From Leisingera sp. ANG-M1 (GTDB lineage Bacteria; Pseudomonadota; Alphaproteobacteria; Rhodobacterales; Rhodobacteraceae): a stretch of 64,000 nt of DNA. The position numbers and the translations under genes are program-made. Numbering within the stretch: position 1 is the stretch's first letter; every line of letters begins with the position of its first letter. The stretch spans positions 62,001-126,000 of the forward strand of contig NZ_JWLC01000006.1 in NCBI RefSeq assembly GCF_000813745.1, read 5' to 3'. The notes beneath the pieces are model-generated. The model searched no databases, was not told the DNA's origin, and worked only from the letters and a program-made list of their open reading frames with translations. Shown here in pieces: positions 8,057-14,853 of this stretch.

Positions 8057-8088
8057 TTGTGATCACACCGAATATTAAGTGATCACAA
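8057..8088 (-). promoter_or_regulatory. TGATCAC palindromic operator upstream of sdhCDAB
   Basis: TTGTGATCAC (8057-8066), 12 bases, GTGATCACAA (8079-8088): two 10-base arms in inverted orientation, each itself containing the palindrome TGATCA. The same pair of arms occurs before sucC with a 13-base spacer. The proximal edge is 114 bases from the sdhC start, against 111 for sucC. Probably the binding site of a shared TCA-cycle regulator; the regulator itself is not in the window. Confidence 0.7.
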
Positions 8089-8135
8089 AATTGGAGATTG
8101 GAAATTTTTTGCAGAATCATCGGGAGTTCTGCAAA

Positions 8136-8837
8136 TCACTGCAAAGCCGCTGCCTGCCGGCCCGCCCCATGCTGCAATGCAGCAGTCTGCCGTGCCACCT
8201 CGCGCACCAGCTTCCTCCGGATCCGGGACGGGTAGTCGGCAAAGCTTGCTGCGGTGACCACAAAGGCCCCCTCGCCGCGGATCACATTCTCAAAAAAATA
8301 CGCAGTCAGATCCGGCTCGCTCTGCTCGATGGCTATGGCATTCACTGTCACCCCCGCGCCCGCCAGCGCCCCATGCGCCTCCCGCGGCTCGACCCCCTCG
8401 TTGGAGAACCCGTCACCGGATATGTCGATCACCCTGCGCTTGCACTGCGGCACCGCCGCGAACTGCTCCAGCGCCAGAAACAGCGCCTCGCCAACGGCCG
8501 TGGAGTAGTTCCGCCAGGGCCGCGGCGCCAGTTCGATCCGCCGCGCCAGCGCCTCCACATCGGCAAAGCTTTGCACCGGCGCCCAGGGCAGCGTCACCTC
8601 CTGCCGGCTCTCTCCGGACCACTGCATCAGCAGCACCTGCGTCCGCCCTTTGACCAGCGCTTCCGCCACCACTCCGTCGCGCAAGCCCGCCGCCAGCCCG
8701 TCCATCTGGATGCGGTACTCCTTGGCGTCGACCGACCCGGAGACATCCACTGCCAGCACCAATGCCAGATCGCAGGCCGCCGTGCGGAGCGGCCAAAAAG
8801 AAATCAGGGAGAAAACCAGAAGCTGCAAAATGCGCAT
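8136..8837 (-). CDS. DUF1194 / von Willebrand factor A-like secreted protein
   Basis: A 233-residue protein with an N-terminal signal peptide (LQLLVFSLISFWPLRTAA) and a vWA-like fold. LVLAVDVSGSVDAKEY is a MIDAS motif (DxSxS), and VIDISGDGFSNEG carries the further metal/strand elements. This matches the DUF1194 family, whose role is unknown; vWA domains usually mediate metal-dependent protein binding. It lies upstream of sdhC on the same strand, but the sdh operator region (about 190 bases) separates them, so it is probably its own unit. Confidence 0.85.
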   Translation of the reverse strand: MRILQLLVFSLISFWPLRTAACDLALVLAVDVSGSVDAKEYRIQMDGLAAGLRDGVVAEALVKGRTQVLLMQWSGESRQEVTLPWAPVQSFADVEALARRIELAPRPWRNYSTAVGEALFLALEQFAAVPQCKRRVIDISGDGFSNEGVEPREAHGALAGAGVTVNAIAIEQSEPDLTAYFFENVIRGEGAFVVTAASFADYPSRIRRKLVREVARQTAALQHGAGRQAAALQ

Positions 8838-8904
8838 GAAGGCAGCTTAGGACGCAAATCCGCCGCCGGTCATCACATTTCTGCCAGCAAGAGTCTCTCC
8901 CTGC

Positions 8905-8972
8905 CGCTTCTTTCTGGTCAAAAATACTCCGGGGGTGAGCAGGCGATGCCTGCGAGGGGGCAGCGCCCCCTC
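8905..8972 (-). repeat. R1 terminator-like repeat after mch
   Basis: On the minus strand, just after the mch stop: hairpin GGGGGCGCTGCCCCC, then GCAGGCATCGCCTGC, then CACCCCCGGAGTATTTTT and GACCAGAAAGAAGC. The same order follows stop codons at 46810 and 54666. The T-run after GC-rich hairpins suggests transcription termination. Confidence 0.65.
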
Positions 8973-8976
8973 TCCG

Positions 8977-10008
8977 TCACTTCGGCATCAGCGCCCAGTA
9001 ATCCAGATCCAGCAGCACGTCGGGCAGATACTTGCCATCCTCGCCCTTCAGCTCAAACGGTGCGCCTCCCTTGGTGGCGACCAGCCGCAGCCGGATCGCA
9101 CCGACGCCGGGAGCAGAGGTATCCGCCTTGTCCAGCACCTCGGACCAGGCCCGCACTGTCAATCCAGACAGGCAGGGGTTGGCATGGGCGCCGCCATTGA
9201 GGCCCACGATCATCTGCGCATTGGCCAGCCCGTTGAACGACAGGGTCCGCGCCATCGAGATCACATGGCCGCCATAGATCAGACGGGTTCCATCCGGCCG
9301 CGCTGTATTGTCGAAATGCACCTTGGCAGTGTTCTGCCACAGGCGCGTCGCCATCATATGCTCGGCTTCCTCGATGGTGACGCCATCCACATGGTCGATG
9401 GTCTCGCCCACCTCGTAATCGCCCCAGCGGTGCGGCTCGCCGGCCAGGGTGAAGTCGTAATTGCTGAAGTCCAGCCCCGCCGGGATCACCAGCTGATCCG
9501 CCGGGATCACCTTGTTCAGTTCCGGGATCACGGTTTCGGGTGCAGGCGCCGAGATATCGCGTTTGCGCACCATCACCCAGCGCACATACTCCATCACGCA
9601 TTCATCGCGCTGGTTCAGGCCACGGGTGCGCACATAGACCACGCCGGACTTGCCGTTGGAGTTCTGCTTGAGGCCGATCACCTCGGACTCGGATCGCAAA
9701 GTGTCGCCGGGATAGACCGGCAGCAGCCAGCGCCCCTCGGCATAGCCAAGGTTCGCCAGCGCGTTCAGCGAGATGTCCGGCACCGTCTTGCCGAACACCA
9801 CATGGAAGGCCGCCAGATCATCCAGCGGCGCCGAAGGCAGACCAGAGGCCCGGGCAAATTCATCCGAAGAATAAAGCGCATGGCGGGCCGGATAGAGCGC
9901 ATGGTACAGCGCCCGCTCGCCGCCCGACACCGTGCGCGGCACCGCATGGCGGATCACTTCGCCAACGGTGTAGTCCTCAAAAAAGCGGCCCGGATTGGTC
10001 TTGGCCAT
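8977..10008 (-). CDS. mch: mesaconyl-CoA hydratase ((2R,3S)-beta-methylmalyl-CoA dehydratase)
   Basis: A 343-residue double hot-dog (MaoC-like) hydratase that interconverts mesaconyl-CoA and beta-methylmalyl-CoA in the ethylmalonyl-CoA pathway of acetyl-CoA assimilation. The N-terminus (GRFFEDYTVGEVIRH) and the repeat in the second half (HRWGDYEVGETIDH) show two MaoC-type units; HDNTARPDG-type and YGGHVIS stretches are typical. Length equals that of the R. sphaeroides enzyme. The ATG overlaps the stop of the DUF1737 gene. Context with malyl-CoA thioesterase supports the assignment over a generic MaoC protein. Confidence 0.88.
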   Translation of the reverse strand: MAKTNPGRFFEDYTVGEVIRHAVPRTVSGGERALYHALYPARHALYSSDEFARASGLPSAPLDDLAAFHVVFGKTVPDISLNALANLGYAEGRWLLPVYPGDTLRSESEVIGLKQNSNGKSGVVYVRTRGLNQRDECVMEYVRWVMVRKRDISAPAPETVIPELNKVIPADQLVIPAGLDFSNYDFTLAGEPHRWGDYEVGETIDHVDGVTIEEAEHMMATRLWQNTAKVHFDNTARPDGTRLIYGGHVISMARTLSFNGLANAQMIVGLNGGAHANPCLSGLTVRAWSEVLDKADTSAPGVGAIRLRLVATKGGAPFELKGEDGKYLPDVLLDLDYWALMPK

Positions 10009-13328: not shown

Positions 13329-14291
13329 ATGGCACGACCCAAAATCGCCCTCATCGGCGCAGGTCAGATCGGCGGCACCCTCGCACACCTCGCAGCCCTC
13401 AAAGAACTCGGCGACGTTGTCCTCTTCGACATCGCTGAAGGCACCCCCGAAGGCAAGGCGCTGGACATCGCGGAATCCGGCCCCTCCGAAGGCTTCGACG
13501 CCTCCCTCAAGGGCACACAGTCCTATGAGGACATCGCAGGCGCCGACGTCTGCATCGTGACCGCCGGCGTGCCGCGCAAGCCGGGCATGAGCCGCGACGA
13601 CCTGCTGGGAATCAACCTTAAGGTGATGAAATCCGTTGGCGAAGGCATCCGCGACCACGCGCCGGACGCATTTGTGATCTGCATCACCAACCCGCTGGAC
13701 GCGATGGTCTGGGCTCTGCGCGAATTCTCGGGCCTGCCCCACGCCAAGGTCTGCGGCATGGCCGGCGTTCTGGACTCCGCCCGCTTCCGCCACTTCCTGG
13801 CCGAGGAATTCAACGTCTCCATGAAAGACGTCACCGCATTCGTGCTGGGCGGCCACGGCGACACCATGGTGCCTTCCGTGCGCTACTCCACCGTTGCAGG
13901 CATCCCGCTGCCCGACCTGGTCAAGATGGGCTGGACCTCGCAGGAGAAGCTGGACGCCATCGTGCAGCGCACCCGTGACGGCGGCGCCGAAATCGTCGGC
14001 CTGCTGAAAACCGGCTCCGCCTTCTATGCGCCGGCCACTTCGGCGATCGAAATGGCCGAAGCCTACCTGAAAGACCAGAAGCGCGTGCTGCCCTGCGCCG
14101 CCTATTGCACCGGCGAGATCGGCGTCAAGGACATGTATGTGGGCGTGCCCACCGTGATCGGCGCCGGCGGCATCGAGCGGATCGTCGACATCCAGCTGAC
14201 CGAGGAAGAGCAAACCATGTTCGACAGCTCGGTCAACGCGGTGAAAGGCCTGGTTGACGCCTGCAAGGGCATCGACCCCTCGCTGGCCTAA
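13329..14291 (+). CDS. mdh: malate dehydrogenase
   Basis: NAD-dependent malate dehydrogenase (LDH-like type) of the TCA cycle, cytoplasmic. The 320 residues have the dinucleotide motif [11 protein letters not shown], the substrate arginine loop ([15 protein letters not shown]), [10 protein letters not shown], and the catalytic histidine in [14 protein letters not shown] site precedes the ATG by 11 bases. A strong terminator follows, so mdh is separate from the sucC unit. Confidence 0.97.
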
Positions 14292-14315
14292 GAAAAGCCG
14301 GGAAATCCCGCATTG

Positions 14316-14346
14316 AATGCGCGCCATCCGGCGCGCATTTTCTTTC
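14316..14346 (+). terminator. intrinsic terminator of mdh
   Basis: Perfect 10-base stem AATGCGCGCC/GGCGCGCATT with loop ATCC and a following T-rich tract, 24 bases after the mdh stop. Confidence 0.88.
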
Positions 14347-14368
14347 CAGAGTCATCTCGGGAAGAACC

Positions 14369-14695
14369 ATGTATCTGCTGGCGATCAAGCTGTGCATCCT
14401 GTGCATTCCGGCCGTTTCCGTTCTTTGGGCGACGCAGCACGCCAAAGCTTCGATACTCCGCAAATCCAGAATCTCCTTGATTGGCTTTGCGATACTGCTG
14501 CTCGTCGCCTGGCCTGTGTTCGGATTTGTGCTTTTTCTTGGCTTCAGCATTGGCGGCGGCAATCCCAGCGTCCTGCAGATCGTGGTCCCGGCGCTGCTAA
14601 TGTCATCCCCTCTCCCGGCCGCTGCAGGGATCACGCTAGCGGCAGCCCGCTTCCTAAAAAGGCGCATCGGCGCTCAGGCATCAAAGGACGCGTGA
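14369..14695 (+). CDS. small three-helix membrane protein between mdh and sucC
   Basis: A 108-residue protein with three hydrophobic helices (about residues 4-20, 36-60 and 66-93) and a basic C-terminus. GGGAAG precedes the ATG by 6 bases. No family recognised. It lies between the mdh terminator and the sucC promoter, so it probably has its own weak promoter. Its base composition is less GC-rich than that of mdh or sucC. Confidence 0.6.
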   Translation: MYLLAIKLCILCIPAVSVLWATQHAKASILRKSRISLIGFAILLLVAWPVFGFVLFLGFSIGGGNPSVLQIVVPALLMSSPLPAAAGITLAAARFLKRRIGAQASKDA

Positions 14696-14820
14696 TTTTC
14701 CGCGAAGGGCCGGCGTGCCTGAAAACAGCCGCGCCGCAACGGCATGACGCTTCTGCCTTGCAATGCGGCGCTTGCGGCCTACGGCGGCATTCGAATCAAA
14801 GCCGTTAAGCTTTCGAAAAT

Positions 14821-14853
14821 TTGTGATCACACGCCGGAAATGCGTGATCACAA
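14821..14853 (+). promoter_or_regulatory. TGATCAC palindromic operator upstream of sucC
   Basis: TTGTGATCAC (14821-14830), 13 bases, GTGATCACAA (14844-14853): same arms as before sdhC. It ends 111 bases before the sucC ATG. Downstream, CTTTAACAC occurs twice (14898-14906 and 14911-14919), close to where a promoter would sit. Confidence 0.7.

Follow-up and report, generated by a model that had tools for sequence, protein, structure and literature searches.

The locus and its two elements

We analysed a stretch of 64,000 nucleotides (the window) from the genome of Leisingera sp. ANG-M1 (5,370,918 bases, a 5.37-megabase (Mb) assembly). In this stretch, the sdhCDAB operon and the suc cluster of the tricarboxylic acid (TCA) cycle are each preceded by a pair of the palindrome GTGATCAC, which is 8 base pairs (bp) long. 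As judged from the sequence, the two pairs are very probably the operators of the ortholog of AkgR, a GntR-family regulator whose ligand-binding domain is of the FCD type. The elements and the genes around them are the following.

8057..8088, no strand: putative AkgR-type operator pair before sdhC, TTGTGATCAC-N12-GTGATCACAA, cores 8059-8066 and 8079-8086, centres 20 bp apart; conserved before sdhC in relatives
14821..14853, no strand: putative AkgR-type operator pair before sucC, TTGTGATCAC-N13-GTGATCACAA, cores 14823-14830 and 14844-14851, centres 21 bp apart; conserved before sucC in relatives
7559..7942, minus strand: sdhC, first gene of the sdh operon (Pfam Sdh_cyt)
7169..7540, minus strand: sdhD (Pfam Sdh_cyt)
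5345..7150, minus strand: sdhA (Pfam FAD_binding_2 and Succ_DH_flav_C)
4245..5024, minus strand: sdhB (Pfam Fer2_3 and Fer4)
13329..14291, plus strand: presumably mdh, as we name it from its translation; between the two pairs, matched in relatives
14965..16158, plus strand: sucC, first gene of the suc cluster (Pfam ATP-grasp_2 and Ligase_CoA)
17996..18880, plus strand: sucD (Pfam CoA_binding and Ligase_CoA)
19415..22366, plus strand: sucA, 2-oxoglutarate dehydrogenase E1 (Pfam E1_dh and OxoGdeHyase_C)

The ATG of sdhC (7942, minus strand) lies 114 bp from position 8057, and the start of sucC (14965, plus strand) 111 bp from 14853. A preliminary description of this DNA had given the sequences, these distances and the matching arms correctly to the base. 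It had also placed the elements on opposite strands, which holds for the two genes but not for the element: this has no strand of its own, since each outer arm is the reverse complement of the other. As each GTGATCAC is a complete palindrome by itself, it makes more sense to regard each element as two dimer sites and not as a single site with two arms. When the whole genome was scanned for the TTGTGATCAC/GTGATCACAA pair with spacers of 10 to 16 allowed, the exact pair was found at two places only, before sdhC and before sucC, and thus at no random places; in 100 dinucleotide shuffles of the window it was not found at all. Three more GTGATCAC octamers occur in the window, all of them single (at 5418, inside sdhA, and at 53833 and 62682). 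Within the window there is no GTGATCAC upstream of mdh, just as the preliminary description had said, and no match to TTGTGATCACAA (with up to three mismatches) directly before sucA. By inferred co-transcription, sucA is probably served by the same upstream promoter as sucC.

The suc cluster itself has an unusual-looking break: sucC and sucD are interrupted (16164-17977) by two open reading frames, one for a lipoprotein-like protein of 256 amino acids and the other for a methyltransferase. The lipoprotein-like reading frame had no Pfam or NCBIfam match.

Conservation and location of the pair

Absence of the pair from close relatives, which in the preliminary description would have spoken against a shared operator, is not what we found. 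In a sample of 120 genomes of the family to which the strain belongs, one per genus, the pattern GTGATCAC-N10-15-GTGATCAC is present in 108 genomes, twice in 88, once in 17 and three or four times in 3 (G110 has four pairs), and the reversed pattern that served as control in none of the 120. The genes next to the pairs were determined for 75 of them, in 52 regions taken from relatives within the family, among the matches listed (pairs of some genomes, such as the four of G110, were not located). A first set of 40 regions (35 with TCA genes) had been picked for pairs close together or near akgR and held 63 pairs, before sucC (34), sdhC (28) and sucA (1, in G111); to offset this selection, 12 regions with pairs located elsewhere were added, and their 12 pairs lie before sdhC (5), sucC (4) and fumC (1, in G035), with 2 in G037 that precede no TCA gene searched for. 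Taken together, 73 of the 75 pairs precede a TCA gene: sucC (38), sdhC (33), sucA (1) or fumC (1).

The reading that the pairs are chance or codon-driven repeats has a vanishingly small probability. It can draw on the occurrence of single GTGATCAC octamers in coding DNA and on the two pairs of G037, which have N10 spacers, lie inside or over long open reading frames near no TCA gene searched for (L317, 1551-1576; L318, 1516-1541) and are perhaps chance matches in coding DNA. Against it stand the counts in the shuffles (0/100), with the reversed pattern (0/120) and before TCA operons (73/75), and for the sdhC and sucC pairs these counts refute chance.

A scan of the contigs of named genomes for TTGTGATCAC-N12-13-GTGATCACAA gave at least 118 stretches holding at least 129 pairs of the GTGATCAC form, of which at least 124 lie within 400 bp before sucC (at least 89), sdhC (at least 34) or sucA (at least 1); of the remaining five, one lies 498 bp before sucC and four at the edge of a slice. 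The matches listed include Ruegeria, Leisingera, Sulfitobacter, Roseovarius, Paracoccus, Rhodobacter and Rhodovulum. Also among them are titles from other groups: a Proteobacteria bin, an Alphaproteobacteria bin, a Robiginitomaculum bin and the actinobacterium Nocardioides marinus (L292), all of which we suspect to be mislabelled or mixed records. In a class-wide sample of 389 genomes, two pairs were found in each of the 7 family members and one pair in only 2 of the 382 genomes outside the family (G230 and G269); in G269, none of the six query proteins found a match.

Spacing of the palindromes

The two palindromes are held at an almost constant distance. Among 64 measured pairs, the two of the window included, the spacer is N13 in 60 and N12 in 4, and both lengths occur before either gene (sdhC, N13 26 and N12 3; sucC, N13 34 and N12 1). 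In the named genomes, too, at least 8 of at least 89 sucC pairs and at least 6 of at least 34 sdhC pairs among the matches listed have N12. A spacer code, with N12 for sdh and N13 for suc, is thereby rejected. The difference of one base, which the preliminary description had singled out, looks like ordinary variation because N12 precedes either gene in relatives; its idea of a two-site operator, on the other hand, agrees with the conserved spacing. The pair is flanked on its outer sides by AT-rich sequence (TTT before, AAA after), its middle is little conserved, and the distance of about two DNA turns between the palindromes suggests two cooperating dimers.

AkgR as the probable regulator

In Rhodobacter sphaeroides, GTGATCAC is reported among the binding sites of AkgR, which is described as a transcriptional activator (excerpt of PMC6365646), and the predicted targets of the GntR regulator RSP_0981 are sucCD (RSP_0967-6), sdh (RSP_0974-6) and sucAB-lpd (RSP_0965-62) (excerpt of PMC4344238). 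The akgR ortholog of the Leisingera genome lies outside the window on the minus strand (G000:C56:298690-299340), on the same contig as sdhC and 228 kilobases (kb) away from it; its product of 217 amino acids has a GntR (PF00392) and an FCD (PF07729) domain, both over their cut-offs. Genome G044 encodes a GntR protein that is 80% identical to this ortholog. When its open reading frames were counted by hand from sucC as RSP_0967 (judging by eye which are real and what they are), sdhC, sdhD and sdhA came to stand at RSP_0974-6, matching the published numbers, and the GntR gene, 14 genes after sucC, at the position of RSP_0981. In G044 there are only three perfect TGTGATCACA sites, all inside its sdhC and sucC pairs.

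The presence of the regulator goes along with that of the pair. With an akgR ortholog scored as present if the best match fell below an expect value (E) of 1e-80 (no other best match was stronger than 2e-47), the calls for regulator and pair coincide in 118 of the 120 family genomes, both being present in 107 and neither in 11 (Fisher p 1.2e-13, a value that ignores shared ancestry). The two genomes that disagree are G033, which has the regulator only and in which the second palindrome before sucC reads GTGATCGC, with one changed base, and G096, a draft of about 320 contigs that has the pair but no close regulator match. On a sucC tree (62 rows, three genomes twice), the absence of the regulator needs 6 changes (5-6 in the bootstrap), of which the well-supported branches force 1, and independent co-loss of pair and akgR is suggested. 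Beyond the family no such close match was seen: of 115 genomes sampled across the class, the 2 known family members had a match below E 1e-80 and none of the 113 others did, four of which had weaker matches (37-42% identical).

A further link is the presence of the palindrome at akgR itself. We examined 47 akgR orthologs, namely the 30 best-scoring matches, with that of the window genome included, and 17 fetched in addition; 37 of them have GTGATCAC upstream, and 35 of these carry it at a distance of 5-21 bp from the aligned start codon. At the akgR of the window genome this site is GGCTTTGTGATCACATGAAAGCATG, and a second palindrome follows 44 bp further upstream. Because of its place near the start codon, the site would be expected to block expression, which would amount to negative autoregulation.

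The least unlikely of the alternatives, though still improbable, is that a different FCD/GntR regulator of the window genome binds the pairs, either in place of AkgR or along with it. Candidates would be the AkgR-like paralog on C5 or the regulator on C19, the best-scoring paralogs, which are 40% and 28% identical to AkgR, respectively. The published targets match AkgR (excerpt of PMC4344238). Moreover, the pair tracks the ortholog of 217 amino acids and not the paralogs, as in G047, where the best AkgR match is only 41% identical and the pair is missing, and the sites at the C19 regulator have C/G outside, whereas the outer ends of the TCA pairs are mostly T/A.

Several points weigh against AkgR and in part favour this alternative. 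The window genome encodes 24 FCD regulators, and four CTGTGATCACAG sites surround the C19 regulator, so that GTGATCAC alone does not name AkgR. No site is present at akgR in 10 of the 47 orthologs, that of G044 included, and these 47 were not sampled at random. Of the 2 supported independent contrasts on the sucC tree, the pair changes with the regulator in one and stays the same in the other. The two G037 pairs described above belong here as well. Finally, the equation of the AkgR ortholog with RSP_0981 rests on gene order: that G044 is R. sphaeroides 2.4.1 and that RSP_0981 is AkgR are both assumptions. The 2015 mBio paper that named AkgR reportedly identifies it as RSP_0981 and demonstrates that it activates TCA genes directly.

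Two other regulator types were weighed for the sites. RSP_1663, which we take to be the LacI-type carbon regulator CceR, is like AkgR a regulator of central carbon metabolism. Both sdh and mdh are among its predicted targets, but its motif, [AGT]GTT-N6-8-AAC[ACT], is unlike GTGATCAC (excerpt of PMC4344238). In a comparison by eye that covered the conserved palindromes and no other part of the promoters, that motif was absent, and mdh, a listed target, has no pair in the window; that the sites belong to CceR is thus highly unlikely, and we reject it on the motif and on mdh. The chances are just as slim for an operator of the CRP/FNR type (TGTGA...TCACA) in place of GntR sites. TGTGA and TCACA do resemble CRP half-sites, but in TGTGATCACA the halves touch, without the gap of 6 bp. 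The occurrence of the sites follows a GntR gene, the regulator gene that the co-occurrence comparison covered, and the reports on motif and targets, as far as their excerpts go, name a GntR protein (PMC6365646, PMC4344238). The missing gap and the co-occurrence with the GntR gene led us to reject a CRP-like operator.

Returning to AkgR, the proposal of the preliminary description that one regulator governs sdh and suc is strongly supported by the published motif and targets, the co-occurrence and the site at akgR. Of the regulators it had offered as possibilities, these same observations favour AkgR, whereas CceR falls away. The regulator, its core motif and its targets are already published, and the two pairs are a well-conserved instance of a known regulon and as such largely expected. 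For the paired spacing and the site at the akgR start codon, we found no description in the literature searched, the primary 2015 mBio paper on AkgR lying outside that search.

Variants of the proposed regulon and related regulators

Some relatives carry the pair at other places. In G035 (contig C16, L316), a third N13 pair at 1494-1522 lies 124 bp before fumC (fumarase; Pfam Lyase_1 and FumaraseC_C), and the predicted AkgR regulon is for this reason extended there to another TCA enzyme. In G111 (L125), a genome of 2.4 Mb, a pair at 6754-6782 precedes sucA instead of sucC, and sdhC has none; the putative operator has stayed there with the head of the suc cluster. Outside the family, G230 (L144, about 970-1020) has three palindromes, the first with one mismatch, spaced by N12 and N13 before a gene for a protein 30% identical to AkgR. 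This arrangement hints that the two-turn phasing may be older than the AkgR regulon.

Compared with the regulon of R. sphaeroides, for which the published excerpts are our basis, that of Leisingera shares the GTGATCAC motif, the sdh and suc targets, the GntR regulator and its co-occurrence with the pair. In G044, the regulator gene also occupies the RSP_0981 position of the TCA cluster, whereas the Leisingera akgR, at its distance of 228 kb, is not in the TCA cluster; unlike the G044 ortholog it has a palindrome near its own start, and the window's sucA differs in having no site of its own. PS417_07240, the GntR regulator of a deoxyribonate cluster in Pseudomonas simiae, is 32% identical to AkgR and is also proposed to bind GTGATCAC (excerpt of PMC6365646), a point on the side of the other FCD/GntR regulators; it differs from AkgR in its target pathway, and the palindrome upstream of its gene lies at -47 to -40. 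Among proteins of solved structure, the best sequence match to the AkgR ortholog is McbR of Escherichia coli (PDB 4p9f, E 1.1e-19), a distant relative.

The window genome has ten TGTGATCACA sites, two in the TCA pairs, one at akgR and four in the form of CTGTGATCACAG on C19. The latter four (G000:C19:108720-114757, L005-L008) lie around a second GntR/FCD gene, next to peptide-transporter-like and oxidoreductase-like genes, so named from their translations, and probably mark a regulon of their own, under an AkgR-like protein whose sites differ in the outer base pair. Related regulators may thus share the core and be separated by the outer base pair. A single CTGTGATCACAG stands just before a gene for a Rieske-type oxygenase-like protein (G000:C8, L003, near 1500), and a single CTGTGATCACAA at the start of a dioxygenase-subunit-like gene (G000:C14, L004, near 1500), both again named from translations. 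The 40%-identical AkgR paralog is encoded at G000:C5:182944-183558, and similar second matches (35-43% identical) are found in many family genomes among the matches listed.

Candidate promoters and a possible mechanism of activation

The sequences between the pairs and the genes contain the following candidate promoters.

7971..7998, minus strand: likely sdhC promoter, GTGACA (7998-7993), 16-bp spacer, TAAAAC (7976-7971)
14900..14929, plus strand: possible sucC promoter, TTAACA (14900-14905), 18-bp spacer, TATTGA (14924-14929); similar TTTAA(C)...TATA in some relatives

For sdhC, GTGACA-N16-TAAAAC is the likely promoter: GTGAC keeps a distance of 57-60 bp to the pair in 24 of the 29 upstream regions aligned, that of the window included. 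A consensus promoter scan scored none at 7971..7998. For sucC, TTAACA-N18-TATTGA is a possible, weak candidate; there are two TTAACA hexamers to choose from, and the scan scored the second (14913) and not the one at 14900. Relative to the start points proposed from these promoters, the palindrome centres would lie near -98 and -118 for sdhC and near -88 and -109 for sucC. The nearer centres, -98 versus -88, would then differ by one DNA turn, fitting activation over a distance from a single helix face.

Proteins of the GntR/FCD type bind to palindromes as dimers. One AkgR dimer would occupy each GTGATCAC palindrome, and the two dimers, 20-21 bp apart and hence two DNA turns from each other on the same face, would cooperate. 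From its upstream position, this pair of dimers would activate the sdhCDAB and sucCD-sucAB promoters, the role of AkgR as an activator being taken from the work on R. sphaeroides, and a metabolite signal would act on AkgR. At the single palindrome near its own start codon, AkgR would restrain its own synthesis. We thus propose, with even chances of being right, that AkgR has two operator designs with opposite effects: obligate activation by two dimers at palindromes two turns apart (sdh, suc and the fumC of G035) and self-repression by a single dimer over its own translation start, the phasing being a trait of a wider AkgR-like group, as in G230.

With akgR and the pair present or absent together in 118 of 120 genera, a TCA control element of R. 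sphaeroides is extended towards a family-wide rule. TCA regulation in an abundant marine group can thereby be read from a precisely defined operator, and the pair is a clear test case for the question of whether cooperativity that depends on spacing makes AkgR an activator.

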